Notes under the pieces: model-generated
What the model was told of the DNA's origin: nothing
What the model saw: the letters and a program-made list of their open reading frames with translations, nothing else
Database searches by the model: none
Shown here: positions 5,895-38,557 of the stretch, in pieces
Numbering within the stretch: the first letter of the stretch is position 1
Layout: every line of letters begins with the position of its first letter
Program-made: the position numbers and the translations under genes
NCBI GenBank assembly: GCA_025055675.1
Contig: JANWWT010000001.1
Coordinates: 248,001 to 312,000 of the forward strand
Origin: Pseudanabaenaceae cyanobacterium SKYG29
GTDB lineage: Bacteria; Cyanobacteriota; Cyanobacteriia; Pseudanabaenales; Pseudanabaenaceae
DNA length: 64,000 nucleotides
Reading direction: 5' to 3'

Positions 5895-6554
5895 CTACAG
5901 TCTGCCTAAAGCAATGCGAGCTTTTTCCGTCTCCTGTAAAGCCCTCGTCCACAGCAGGCGCAACACCCGCTTTTGTTCCACCGCGGGGATGTATTCCACG
6001 GTTTCCCGCAGGGAGACATGGACACGGGTATTGACCCAGGGTTGGGGGAATTTGACAGCAATTTCGGCGGGGGAGGCAATTTTCTCTGCCATACGTGGCT
6101 TGGCATAGAGGCGCAGCACAGCCGCTACTGCGGGGCGATTTTCATCACAGAGGAAGTCATCAGGTTTGAGATAGCAGGTCTGCCAGAAATCATAGGCAAG
6201 AGTGTGGGCAGCTAGGGCATTTTGCAAAGGGGGAATACCAACTGCACTAGGGTCAAGGAGAGCAGTCCCGATCGCTGCCCGCGCTTTCTGCAGGGCTAAC
6301 CCGTATTCAAATAGGGAAAATTCTGTTTCCAGTAGCTTGTTGAGGGCTTCCATGGCATCTAAGGCTTCTAGGTCAGCCGTTGTCAGAATGGGAGTTGTCG
6401 GCAGGTACTGGGGCAGTTGAAACTTACCCTGTAATTGCTGGGACAGGGGTGCCGTCTGGGGCTTGCCTTGGGTCTGATACTCTAAAGGCGCTGCTATCAC
6501 CCCATAACTAAGCAATAAGCAGCTCAAACCGCAACCTAACCACCGATTACCCAT
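5895..6554 (-). CDS. Secreted or membrane-anchored protein of unknown function
   Basis: The protein has 219 residues when read from ATG 6554, which has GTGAGGA upstream; a TTG two codons earlier is less likely. The N-terminus (MGNRWLGCGLSCLLLSYGVIAA) is a signal peptide with a cleavage site near residue 22 and no proper lipobox. The mature part is mostly helical, with DLEALDAMEALNKLLETEFSLFEYGLALQKARAA and two cysteines (TCYLKPDDFLCDENRP) that could form a disulfide. No family was recognised. It is probably periplasmic or thylakoid-lumenal. It stands alone between DUF3155 on the same strand and the divergent thrC. Confidence 0.75.
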   Translation of the reverse strand: MGNRWLGCGLSCLLLSYGVIAAPLEYQTQGKPQTAPLSQQLQGKFQLPQYLPTTPILTTADLEALDAMEALNKLLETEFSLFEYGLALQKARAAIGTALLDPSAVGIPPLQNALAAHTLAYDFWQTCYLKPDDFLCDENRPAVAAVLRLYAKPRMAEKIASPAEIAVKFPQPWVNTRVHVSLRETVEYIPAVEQKRVLRLLWTRALQETEKARIALGRL

Positions 6555-6746
6555 ACTCAATCCTCACAACTCCTACTAGAAGCATACTCCCATCCCTCCA
6601 ATTCCCTGACAAGGAGTTAACTGTTCCCTTGTACCAGATATTGACAGAAAAAGCCTGATTCTTGAATTCAGACTATTTTAGTCGGGATTACTTGGGGGGT
6701 AGTTGTAGTTGTGGTAAACTGAGGCTTGACCTTGATAGAAATAGCC

Positions 6747-8039
6747 ATGACTGCGACCCTAACCCGTACAGAGAAGACCTTTAGCTTGCTCCGCTGTAAG
6801 GAGTGTGGTGCTACCTATCAACCCAAAGCAATGCATGTGTGCGAAAAGTGTTTTGGTCCTTTGGAGGTGGTTTACAACTATGAGGCGATCGGGGCGAGGG
6901 TAACGCGGTCTGGCATTGAGGCAGGGCCCCATTCGATTTGGCGGTATCGGGATTTCCTGCCAGTGGAGACGGAGGATTATATTGACGTGGGGACGGGCAT
7001 GACTCCCCTGCTGCGGGCATCACGGTTGGCGAAAAGGCTAGGGCTAAAGCGTCTTTACATCAAGAACGATGCGGTGAATATGCCGACTTTGAGCTTTAAG
7101 GATAGGGTTGTCTCAGTAGCCCTGAGTCGGGCACGAGAGTTGGGCTTTACTACCGTGGCTTGTGCCAGTACCGGCAATTTAGCTAATTCGACAGCAGCGA
7201 TCGCTGCCCATGCGGGGTTGGACTGTTGTGTATTTATTCCTGCCGATTTAGAAGCGGGTAAGATTTTAGGTACGGTGGTCTATGCCCCCAAGGTGTTTGC
7301 TGTGCACGGCAACTATGACCAGGTGAATCGCCTTTGCTCGGAGGTGGCAAATACCTATGGTTGGGGCTTTGTCAACATCAATCTCCGCCCCTATTACTCG
7401 GAAGGTTCCAAGACCCTGGGGTTTGAGGTGGTAGAGCAGTTGGGATGGGAATTACCCGATCGGATTGTGGCTCCTCTGGCTTCAGGTTCTCTCTTTACCA
7501 AGATTTACAAAGGCTTCCAAGAATTTATCAAGGTGGGGCTGGTAGGGGAGAAAGCCGTGAGATTTAGTGGGGCACAGGCAGAAGGATGTTCCCCTATTGC
7601 CCAGGCATTTAAGGAAGGGCGGGACTTTATTGCCCCGGTTAAACCCAAGACCATTGCTAAGAGTATTGCCATTGGCAATCCGGCGGATGGTATCTATGCC
7701 CTAGAAGTTGCCCGCCAGACGGGAGGGGAAATTGAGTCAGTCACTGATGGGGAGATTGTAGAAGCCATCAAGCTCCTAGCGGAAACAGAGGGTATTTTTA
7801 CGGAAACCGCAGGGGGTACCACAGTTGCTGTCCTGAAAAAGTTAGTGGAACTGGGCAAGATTGAACCAGAGGAAACAACAGTTGTTTACATCACGGGCAA
7901 TGGTTTGAAAACCCAGGAGGCGGTACAGGGTTATGTGGGCGAGCCTTTCCAAATTGAAGCTAAGTTGGACAGCTTCGTACGCGCCTACGAACGTTCCCAG
8001 ACCCTCGATCGCCTGGAGTGGCAAACTGCTCTGGTCTAA
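6747..8039 (+). CDS. thrC: Threonine synthase
   Basis: ThrC converts O-phosphohomoserine to threonine with pyridoxal phosphate. The 430-residue product has an N-terminal zinc-ribbon-like motif (C17, C20, C32, C35: LRCKECG and HVCEKCFGPLE), the PLP lysine K118 in NMPTLSFKDRVV, the ASTGNLANSTAA phosphate-binding loop and a typical fold-type II C-terminus (YITGNGLKTQEA). The ATG at 6747 (MTATLTRTEKTF) was preferred over an in-frame TTG seven codons upstream because family proteins begin shortly before the Cys-rich motif. It is followed after 42 bases by dxr on the same strand. Confidence 0.95.
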   Translation: MTATLTRTEKTFSLLRCKECGATYQPKAMHVCEKCFGPLEVVYNYEAIGARVTRSGIEAGPHSIWRYRDFLPVETEDYIDVGTGMTPLLRASRLAKRLGLKRLYIKNDAVNMPTLSFKDRVVSVALSRARELGFTTVACASTGNLANSTAAIAAHAGLDCCVFIPADLEAGKILGTVVYAPKVFAVHGNYDQVNRLCSEVANTYGWGFVNINLRPYYSEGSKTLGFEVVEQLGWELPDRIVAPLASGSLFTKIYKGFQEFIKVGLVGEKAVRFSGAQAEGCSPIAQAFKEGRDFIAPVKPKTIAKSIAIGNPADGIYALEVARQTGGEIESVTDGEIVEAIKLLAETEGIFTETAGGTTVAVLKKLVELGKIEPEETTVVYITGNGLKTQEAVQGYVGEPFQIEAKLDSFVRAYERSQTLDRLEWQTALV

Positions 8040-35647: not shown

Positions 35648-36046
35648 CCAACCATGTATCGCCCGCTTTGAATTAGCCAGTGTTTAATTTAGGCAGCCTT
35701 CAACTTGGGGCTAAGGAATTCCCTCTGTCTGCATACTTATGAGGTATCCCCTTCAATTCAAAGACACGTAGCTGTTCAATCATCTTGACTAGTGAAAATC
35801 TTAGAATACTTAGAGTCTATTGCTGACAGATAGGTAGGAATCTTATAGGTACTTTGGATGACGGCTCAGGGCTTTTCAGAATTGCAGGTCTGTTTCGCTT
35901 CAATAGGTCAACTGCATACTACCCGTACCTTATTTAGGGATGGGACTTATGCTTACACTGGAGATCAACAAACTTAAACACACCTTAACTTCTAGGTTGC
36001 GACTTGGGTATTATCCTTATGTAATTGTCTTTTTCTGCAGCGACCT
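35648..36046. other. Intergenic stretch of about 400 bases without a supported gene
   Basis: It lies between purH and the EndoU gene on the same strand. A 39-codon frame (ATG 35858 to TAA 35975-35977) has no ribosome binding site or recognisable product and is not called. No clear terminator or structured RNA was identified. Confidence 0.45.
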
Positions 36047-37360
36047 ATGCTTAAACACACTACTTTGGTGGCATTACCTGTGTGCCTGGGCAGCCTCATC
36101 CTACCAGCTTATGCTGCTACGACTCTACCTACTGGTACACAATTTACTGCTACCTCCAATTGTCAAGTTGCTAGTTCCATTAGCGGAATTAGCTCCAGCT
36201 CCCAAAGACTGGTTGTCAACTCCAAATACAATGCCCGTGAAATTAACAGAAGTTACAACGACTCTACCCATGTACGAATTGAATACAACGGTCAGCTCAT
36301 GTGGGTGGCCATCAGCGGTTGTGGCAACTTGCCTGTGTTCCAATCCACTAACACCTGCCGCGTAGCTAGCAGTATCGCAGGTATTCCTACCAGCAATAAA
36401 AGGTTACAAAACGGTGCATTCTATGCCATTACTGCTTTCAATCAACAAACCAATCCCGAAGCTTCTACCCATGTGCAGTTAAATAATAGTGGTGTTTTGG
36501 ACTGGACGGCTATTAGTGGCTGTGGCAATGTCATTCGGGTTGCTGCTTCTAGTAGTCCCTCTCCCAGTCCTACCCCAACACCTACTCCAGGTGGCAGTGG
36601 CATTCCTGGTACCGGCCCGTTCTTTGATACGGTGAATAATCCGGAAAACAATGCTTTTGGCGGTAATGCTGACCCCACCCCACCCCCTCCTACCTTGACT
36701 GCCTTCGATCGGGAAATGGCTGCTATCTGTGGTGCTCCTGGTACTGCTGTTAGCCCCACCACCTTCAAGAATGCCCTCAAAAAATATCCTGCGGAACTCA
36801 ACCGCATCATGCAATTTACGGGTTATCGGGTCTTTGGTAATCGTCCCAGTCAATACACTAATCCTGACCAATACCTTGACCAATTGGCAGAAGCCTGGTT
36901 TGACCCCAATACTAAGGGTTTTGACCACATCTTCTGTGGTGAACCTGAGCCTGGGGGTAAGGTAGGAGGGTTGCACTTCCACGGTCGCTACCTAGACTTG
37001 CAGGAGAAGGGTTTGGCCGGTCGTCTCTTGAATAATAGTAGCAAGCAAGAAATTATGCCGCTAGTGATTTACACGATCGGGGTACGGATGCGCAATGCCA
37101 GCGGTGGTATTTCCGAGAGTGCTATCAAGGGCTACGGCTATACCCTCAGTGCTGAAGACATTCTGAAGTTTGTCACCAAAGCCTTCCGGGACAACCCTTC
37201 CAGCAACACTGCTAGTAGTGATGGTTGTATTCTGGATGTCAGCGATGATGGCAAGAACTTTAAGACCATGTTCTTCCGTCGTGCCTCTGGTATCCGTACT
37301 TTCTATCCTGATGCCACCCCTGAACCTGGCAAGTTTCCTGCCTGCAACGTTAGACCATAG
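36047..37360 (+). CDS. Secreted protein with two N-terminal Cys repeats and a C-terminal EndoU-type ribonuclease domain
   Basis: The 437-residue protein has a signal peptide ending near A23. Two tandem repeats of about 60 residues follow (about 34-95 and 99-162), each with paired cysteines and the phrases CxVASSIxGI, STHVxxxxxG and WxAISGCGN. Then comes a Ser/Pro/Thr linker (SPSPSPTPTPTPGG) and a domain from about 218. In that domain GFDHIFCGEPE and VGGLHFHGRYLDLQEKG match the two histidine motifs of the EndoU/XendoU family; H294 and H310 are 16 residues apart, the spacing of the catalytic pair in Xenopus XendoU (H162, H178). EndoU enzymes cut single-stranded RNA near uridines. No immunity gene is evident beside it. 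Confidence 0.8.
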   Translation: MLKHTTLVALPVCLGSLILPAYAATTLPTGTQFTATSNCQVASSISGISSSSQRLVVNSKYNAREINRSYNDSTHVRIEYNGQLMWVAISGCGNLPVFQSTNTCRVASSIAGIPTSNKRLQNGAFYAITAFNQQTNPEASTHVQLNNSGVLDWTAISGCGNVIRVAASSSPSPSPTPTPTPGGSGIPGTGPFFDTVNNPENNAFGGNADPTPPPPTLTAFDREMAAICGAPGTAVSPTTFKNALKKYPAELNRIMQFTGYRVFGNRPSQYTNPDQYLDQLAEAWFDPNTKGFDHIFCGEPEPGGKVGGLHFHGRYLDLQEKGLAGRLLNNSSKQEIMPLVIYTIGVRMRNASGGISESAIKGYGYTLSAEDILKFVTKAFRDNPSSNTASSDGCILDVSDDGKNFKTMFFRRASGIRTFYPDATPEPGKFPACNVRP

Positions 37361-37403: not shown

Positions 37404-37985
37404 CTAGTCAAAAATTTCTTGGACGGCGCAGGTGAAATTGGGGAGTAAGGGAGAAGTGAGGAGGTCGTTGTTATACAAAGTCATGGCTAATTTGAGAACG
37501 CCCCCTTCCCTTCTGTAGACCTCTATCTGCCTGGACTGCCAATCTGCCAGCCAATACTCTAAAACCCCGTAGACAGAATAGAGCTTCAACTTAACCTGCC
37601 GATCGCGTCTGACATTTTCTGCCCCTGGCGATAGCACTTCAATCACTAAATCTGGCGCTCCCCGTAGATGACCGGCTTCATCGATTAGAGATTGAAACTT
37701 TTGCTTGCTGACCCAAACTACATCAGGAATCACGTCATTCTGCTCACTAAAAATCACGCCTGGATTTAGGCAAACGTACCCCAAATTTGTTCGTTCAGAC
37801 CACAACTTTAACTTGGTGTAAAAGTTGCCGCAGGTAGTTTGATGTTGCCAGTGGGGTGCTCTGGTCACAAACAACTCTCCCTCTACAATTTCATAGCGGC
37901 TACTGTCCTGGGGCAACAGCTCTAGGTCGGCACTTACCCAAGGGCGCAGGTCATGGTTTGGGCTAGATAGTTTGCTGGTAGTCAT
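37404..37985 (-). CDS. Uma2 family (DUF820) endonuclease-like protein, copy 2
   Basis: The 193-residue protein belongs to the PD-(D/E)XK-like Uma2 family, greatly expanded in cyanobacteria. It has RYEIVEGELFVTRAPHWQHQ, NDVIPDVVWVSKQKFQSL, the putative catalytic core GAPDLVIEVLSPGAENVRRDRQVKLKLY, and YGVLEYWLADWQSRQIEVYRR. Biological role is unknown. It is nearly identical in its C-terminal half to the gene upstream, so it is a tandem duplicate. The start is ATG 37985 (MTTSKLSSPNHD), eight bases after the upstream stop. Confidence 0.88.
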   Translation of the reverse strand: MTTSKLSSPNHDLRPWVSADLELLPQDSSRYEIVEGELFVTRAPHWQHQTTCGNFYTKLKLWSERTNLGYVCLNPGVIFSEQNDVIPDVVWVSKQKFQSLIDEAGHLRGAPDLVIEVLSPGAENVRRDRQVKLKLYSVYGVLEYWLADWQSRQIEVYRREGGVLKLAMTLYNNDLLTSPLLPNFTCAVQEIFD

Positions 37986-37993
37986 AACTGTAG

Positions 37994-38557
37994 TTAACCA
38001 AAAATTTCCTGCACAGGGCAAGTGAAGTTGGGTAGCAGAGGGGAAGTAAGCAGGTCGTTGTTATACAAAGTCATGGCTAGTTTGAGGACACCCCCTTCCC
38101 TTCTGTAGACCTCTATCTGCCTAGCCTGCCAGTCTGCTAACCAATATTCCAAAACTCCATAGACAGAGTAGAGTTTCAATTTGACCTGCCGATCGCGTCT
38201 GGCATTTTCTGCCCCTGGCGATAGCACCTCAATCACCAAATCCGGTGCTCCCCGCAGATGTCCTGCCCCATCCAGCAAACTCTGATATTTCTCTTTGGTC
38301 ACCCAAACTACATCAGGGATCACATCGTTTTCTTCACTAAAAATCACACCAACATGCATGCCCACATATCCTAAACCCGTAGCTTGTGACCACTGTTGCA
38401 GAGCCAGACAAAAGTTAAGGCAAGTAGTTTGATGCTGCCAATGGGGTGCTCTCGTCACAAACAACTCTCCCTCTACAATCTCATAGCGGTTGCCGTTTTC
38501 TGGCAGTAAATCTAAATCTCCCCTCGTCCATAACTGTCGGATTGTAAGTTCACTCAT
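37994..38557 (-). CDS. Uma2 family (DUF820) endonuclease-like protein, copy 1
   Basis: The 187-residue paralogue of the next gene has the same blocks: NRYEIVEGELFVTRAPHWQHQ, NDVIPDVVWVTKEKYQSLL, GAPDLVIEVLSPGAENARRDR and YGVLEYWLADWQARQIEVYRR. Residues D, E and K of the PD-(D/E)XK-type core appear present (PDLVIEVLSP, VKLK). The two copies diverge mainly in the N-terminal 25 residues and in the central segment after HWQHQTTC. The start ATG 38557 gives MSELTIRQLWTRGDLDLLPENG. Confidence 0.88.
   Translation of the reverse strand: MSELTIRQLWTRGDLDLLPENGNRYEIVEGELFVTRAPHWQHQTTCLNFCLALQQWSQATGLGYVGMHVGVIFSEENDVIPDVVWVTKEKYQSLLDGAGHLRGAPDLVIEVLSPGAENARRDRQVKLKLYSVYGVLEYWLADWQARQIEVYRREGGVLKLAMTLYNNDLLTSPLLPNFTCPVQEIFG

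Follow-up and report, generated by a model that had tools for sequence, protein, structure and literature searches.

The gene at positions 36047..37360 of the window (the whole analysed stretch of 64,000 nucleotides, from contig JANWWT010000001.1 of Pseudanabaenaceae cyanobacterium SKYG29) raises the question of what an EndoU-type endoribonuclease does outside a cyanobacterial cell, and whether it is a toxin or an RNase with another purpose. The sequence-only reading of this locus had described a secreted protein with a signal peptide, two 60-residue Cys repeats, a Pro/Thr linker and an EndoU-like domain, free-standing, with no visible immunity gene and with repeats that may bind cell wall or polysaccharide. 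The observation was confirmed in our analysis, and its interpretation was partly supported. The encoded protein, designated P0001, has the following features:

36047..37360, + strand: gene for a secreted EndoU-type endoribonuclease (P0001), an open reading frame of 437 aa with an ATG start and a PF14436 match
36047..36115, + strand: Sec-type signal peptide, residues 1-23, cleavage between AYA and ATT placed by eye and kept in L032
36119..36328, + strand: Cys module 1, residues 25-94, C39...C92, with a weak SH3-like fold match
36329..36538, + strand: Cys module 2, residues 95-164, C104...C159, from the module alignment
36539..36616, + strand: Pro/Thr/Ser-rich linker, residues ~165-190, from the sequence
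36617..36910, + strand: "PFFDxxNNP..." stretch and N-terminal extension, residues 191-288, conserved in the secreted EndoU family
36911..37315, + strand: EndoU catalytic domain PF14436, residues 289-423, from the Pfam profile match
36926-36928, 36974-36976 and 37127-37129, + strand: catalytic candidates H294, H310 and K361, from alignment

The ATG lies at the identical position in the ortholog L032 (88-89% protein identity), which is the closest public record and comes from an uncultured Pseudanabaenaceae MAG. The EndoU gene is single-copy in the genome, and an NCBIfam search with P0001 returned no match. The signal peptide and the Pro/Thr linker were both found as described earlier. The duplication of the Cys repeat also held: the two modules share 46-48% identity in alignment, and their local score of 139 exceeded that of shuffled sequences (mean 25.4, sd 4.8) with a Z of 23.5, so the duplication is not due to chance. 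The repeat length did not hold, each unit spanning ~65-70 residues instead of 60. In the module tree, copies 1 and 2 group separately across three species; the duplication is therefore older than the split of the P0001 genus.

The catalytic domain was matched by PF14436 (EndoU_bacteria) with an E-value of 3.4e-27 and 95.8 bits, against a curated cut-off of 25.3, which agrees with the EndoU-like domain proposed before. H294 and H310 are 16 residues apart, the same as XendoU H162 and H178, and the claimed histidine spacing was thus verified. When the family profile was compared with solved structures, human ENDOU (9ftw) was matched at E 1.5e-5 and XendoU (2c1w) at E 1.1e-4, and both H294 and H310 align with histidines of these two enzymes; an alignment to XendoU had been suggested as a check, and both histidines passed it. 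Human ENDOU has the triad H285, H300 and K343, and replacing either of the histidines by alanine makes it inactive (PMC11275989). Across 23 cyanobacterial sequences, H294, H310, K361 and T418 are invariant in alignment. The third catalytic residue of the EndoU superfamily is a lysine in eukaryotes, with a Ser/Thr close by. A third catalytic residue had been sought, and the invariant K361 is a candidate; the profile alignment to the solved ENDOU and XendoU structures stops before it, and we infer this assignment, a lysine in the third position being plausible by comparison with these enzymes. C228, C297, C394 and C433 are likewise invariant in the 23 sequences, which fits an exported, disulfide-bonded protein.

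The likeness to XendoU and human ENDOU (PF09412; 2c1w, 9ftw) covers an equal or near-equal histidine spacing and the preceding stretch, which aligns too, and human ENDOU, like P0001, carries an N-terminal extension to the catalytic core. In contrast to both, P0001 is bacterial, its PF09412 match falls under the cut-off (E 0.11), and its N-terminal modules differ. A full-length AlphaFold2 model, built from a 4-sequence alignment only, had a pLDDT of 33; the EndoU fold is predicted for P0001 from sequence homology.

The best-known members of PF14436 are polymorphic and CDI toxins (PMC3482391; MafB, PMC4287609). Delivery modules together with a neighbouring immunity gene are the hallmarks of polymorphic toxins (PMC4287609). 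P0001 shares with the toxins (MafB of Neisseria, CDI EndoU) a Pfam match above cut-off and two catalytic-type histidines. Unlike them, it has its own signal peptide, conserved cysteines, an N-terminal extension and Cys modules, and lacks a delivery domain and an immunity gene. As the earlier description had it, P0001 was found to be a stand-alone protein of 437 aa with a signal peptide and not the C-terminal tip of a delivery protein. The upstream purH is common to the P0001 locus and L032. Downstream, the EndoU gene is followed by two convergent Uma2 genes in the P0001 locus, a CRISPR array in L032 and other genes in L044. No immunity gene was seen adjoining the EndoU gene, and no partner was conserved among these three loci, so a polymorphic-toxin reading is unsupported; the partner search suggested earlier bore out the claimed lack of an immunity gene.

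Two side observations concern these neighbours. The Uma2 (PF05685) pair at 37404-38557 on the minus strand contains near-identical stretches and apparently arose by tandem duplication. In L032, a CRISPR-like array lies directly 3' of the EndoU ortholog at 6420-6909, with a repeat of approximately GTTTCAGTCCCGCGATCGGGATTCATCAGAAAGAAAC in 7 copies at 72-75 bp spacing, and a 115-nt block in the array region is duplicated at 99% identity.

The family was surveyed in a wider set of genomes. Of 292 cyanobacterial genomes, 33 encoded PF14436, for the most part in exported stand-alone proteins of ~280-440 aa; in one further cyanobacterial family (f7), a stand-alone EndoU was present in 122 of the 212 genomes. 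Three architectures were distinguished: EndoU with just a signal peptide; EndoU with a different N-terminal domain (L003, L007, L010, L015 and many in an independent set); and EndoU with one or two Cys modules. The alternative N-terminal domain, ~160 residues on the long EndoU type (L003, L007, L010, L015, L150, L152-L171), gave no Pfam match in the one case tested (L010). An EndoU relative 63% identical to P0001 was noted at 1-792 of L033, a MAG labelled Rhizobiales; it is split over two frames near the contig end and may reflect contamination or transfer. Among viral contigs, neither the EndoU family nor a module-bearing T2 had a relative. The exoproteome of Anabaena includes All2314, which has been named a putative endoU-like nuclease (PMC10957091); by this description it resembles P0001 as a cyanobacterial EndoU-like nuclease outside the cell. 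The stand-alone form of P0001 is real, but the surprise expressed over a non-toxin bacterial EndoU was overstated, since such proteins are common in cyanobacteria and All2314 had already been seen in an exoproteome.

These data bear on two toxin-related explanations. It is extremely unlikely that P0001 is the remnant of a polymorphic toxin, or an orphan CDI-type effector, that has lost its immunity gene: the Pfam family is held in common, whereas the signal peptide, the conserved cysteines, the lack of both delivery module and immunity gene, and the family-wide architecture of a stand-alone family conserved across cyanobacteria speak against it. An extracellular antibacterial or anti-grazer RNase, acting without contact delivery and held on the surface or sheath by its modules, is also improbable, albeit less so. 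Secreted RNases can be put to defensive use, and the family is famous for toxins, yet toxin delivery domains are absent, the downstream gene is not conserved (Uma2, CRISPR array, others) and the catalytic domain is conserved instead of polymorphic. P0001 is better read as an extracellular RNase, for which RNA scavenging appears the most likely purpose, with surface or matrix functions as rivals.

The N-terminal Cys module provides a further line of evidence. The search for it covered 292 genomes of cyanobacteria, close relatives and, around L033, 398 genomes from its phylum (Pseudomonadota) and 289 from its class, together with 72,556 plasmid records; in each genome, scores were computed for the best 15-20 first-look candidates. 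In this sample of ~980 genomes plus plasmids, drawn mainly from two phyla, 27 of 27 clear carriers were secreted RNases with an N-terminal module, many of the RNase T2 carriers being closely related. Pfam confirmed the carrier type in every case (8/8 EndoU, 19/19 RNase T2, PF00445). The EndoU carriers belonged to the P0001 genus, L022/L035, L008/L036, L038, L046 and L077 (one genome, from the class of L033). T2 carriers were found in cyanobacteria (L037, L039, L040), in the phylum search, where 14/14 module matches were RNase T2 (Pseudomonadota; L051-L064), and on plasmids of Sulfitobacter and Legionella. Weak matches with E-values of 0.005-0.05 (L041, L078-L081, L088-L090), which were partial and in some cases contained stops, were left out. 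Two cysteines, one tyrosine and one tryptophan are invariant within the module, and the module alignments (A1, A2, A5) yielded no significant Pfam family and no PDB sequence match. The module is absent from Pfam and new here, and in our sample it occurred only on secreted RNases of two unrelated families.

The folds of EndoU and RNase T2 are not related to each other, and the module has therefore moved between them. Module-bearing T2 proteins of cyanobacteria and Pseudomonadota (PF00445; for example L037, L047, L051) have the same Cys module at the same position after a signal peptide, but differ from P0001 in their unrelated catalytic fold and in carrying one module in place of two. Module presence requires four changes on the EndoU tree, and partner type requires three on the module tree, which is based on a short alignment with weak supports. 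A single clade of module-bearing EndoUs was rejected by the AU test on the EndoU tree, with a long-branch caveat for L077; repeated gain or loss of the module is consequently likely. The presence of the module on both EndoU and T2 suggests a common task in handling RNA outside the cell, and not a toxin.

The position of the module could also suggest an inhibitory or folding pro-region that keeps the RNase inactive until it is outside, without binding substrate or wall. In every carrier the module follows the signal peptide and precedes the catalytic domain, and the carriers are only enzymes that would be harmful if misplaced. Against this, most family members manage without the module, and in the P0001 genus it is duplicated and joined by a flexible linker, which makes a pro-region very unlikely.

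An AlphaFold2 model of the module, computed from four copies, was all-beta, with a pLDDT of 78 and a pTM of 0.61. The best Foldseek matches in the PDB were SH3, tandem-Tudor and several wall-binding SH3b-type proteins, all at E >=0.5, so the SH3-like small barrel suggested by the model stays a lead and not a result. The SH3_3 profile touched 1 of 20 modules at E 0.015, with none significant. The module model thus shows a weak fold resemblance to bacterial SH3 domains (SH3_3, PF08239; SH3b), but the module differs from them in having no significant sequence match, in its two invariant cysteines and in being found here only on RNases. SH3b domains commonly bind wall polymers, and binding of cell wall or polysaccharide by the repeats, as first suggested, is possible on the model. 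Since the module was confined in our sample to EndoU and T2, an RNA-related or RNase-retention role is equally likely.

The same observations bear on a sheath or matrix RNase that trims extracellular RNA or acts in biofilm turnover, with the modules as SH3b-like polysaccharide or peptidoglycan binders. The SH3/SH3b matches of the model, wall-binding ones included, and the single SH3_3 hit are in its favour, as is the other EndoU subfamily (L003, L007, L010, L015), which has another N-terminal domain in this position, as interchangeable targeting domains would. However, the usual wall-binding SH3b domains are spread over many enzyme types and the Cys module was seen on RNases only; we consider this explanation unlikely.

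The region upstream of the gene contains two elements relevant to its regulation:

35973..35991, + strand: Pho-box-like tandem CTTAAACA-CAC-CTTAACTT, 74 bp 5' of the ATG, with 1 mismatch to YTTAAYYWNNNYTTAAYYW
35985-36014, + strand: promoter-like TTAACT-18-TATTAT, the second Pho-box-like unit overlapping the -35 position

The -10-like hexamer TATTAT lies 17 bp past the Pho-box-like site. A degenerate Pho box can be written as YTTAAYYW with 3-bp spacers. In cyanobacteria the consensus CTTAACCT occurs in tandem, with at least 3 units reported for SphR (PMC1906773). The site of P0001 comprises two clear units with an 11-bp period, where three are usual. In L032 the site has the same location, and L044 retains a related block in an upstream region that otherwise aligns poorly. 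In the P0001 genome, perfect sites lie ahead of the genes for a PstS-like phosphate-binding protein and for a CHAD protein. In the same genome, three tandem Pho-box-like units (L098, C9:7677-7706) stand before the gene of an exported protein with a metallo-beta-lactamase fold, which may be a further secreted enzyme under Pho control.

Among 39 cyanobacterial EndoU/T2 upstreams, a Pho box with <=1 mismatch was present in 5, against 0.59 expected; 40 permuted units reached <=4 in the same set and other periods (8-24) gave 0-2, so that period 11 stands out. The independent set was mixed, with 0/19 short-type and 5/21 long-type EndoU genes; in its long-type part period 11 was again the highest, yet other periods reached up to 4. 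Several long-type upstreams (L003, L007, L010, L015, L150, L152-L171 group) contain TTAATCA tandems with an 11-bp period. The 0/19 short-type genes led us to reject the idea that EndoU genes in general have a Pho box, and no PhoB box was found upstream of the proteobacterial module-T2 genes. Genome-wide, the loose pattern (<=1 mismatch) occurred 35 times versus 31 for the reversed control and was not enriched. With this and the mixed independent set, phosphate control of the P0001 gene is plausible rather than established, and not general. The extracellular nuclease nucH belongs to the cyanobacterial Pho regulon (PMC1906773), and in rice, phosphate starvation induces S-like RNases of the T2 family (PMC7793952).

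On this evidence it is somewhat probable that P0001 is an exported RNase for RNA scavenging. The Sec signal would export it across the cell membrane, and the EndoU domain would cleave single-stranded RNA through acid-base catalysis of the RNase A type, using H294, H310 and K361 and leaving 2',3'-cyclic-phosphate ends. Downstream phosphodiesterases and phosphatases could then turn these ends into nucleosides and phosphate. The two SH3-like modules, presumably disulfide-closed and set on a flexible linker, would hold the substrate RNA, or tether the enzyme to a polymer of the envelope or matrix, and so concentrate RNase activity near the cell. Expression would probably rise in phosphate shortage through the SphR/PhoB box. 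A broader proposal is put forward tentatively: the module may be a dedicated small-barrel domain of secreted RNases, gained by EndoU and T2, that captures extracellular RNA, and its carriers may together form an uncharacterised RNA-feeding system, phosphate-controlled in some cyanobacteria.

Bacterial EndoU proteins have been studied almost solely as toxin warheads. Judging by the cyanobacterial family, EndoU may have a second, widespread use outside the cell, as an RNase for housekeeping or scavenging, and the family's likeness to human ENDOU near the catalytic histidines makes its members useful for comparison when tracing how the eukaryotic extension arose. The RNase-only module gives a sequence handle on secreted bacterial RNases as a class, and raises the testable question of whether a shared accessory domain binds RNA or tethers RNases to the envelope.
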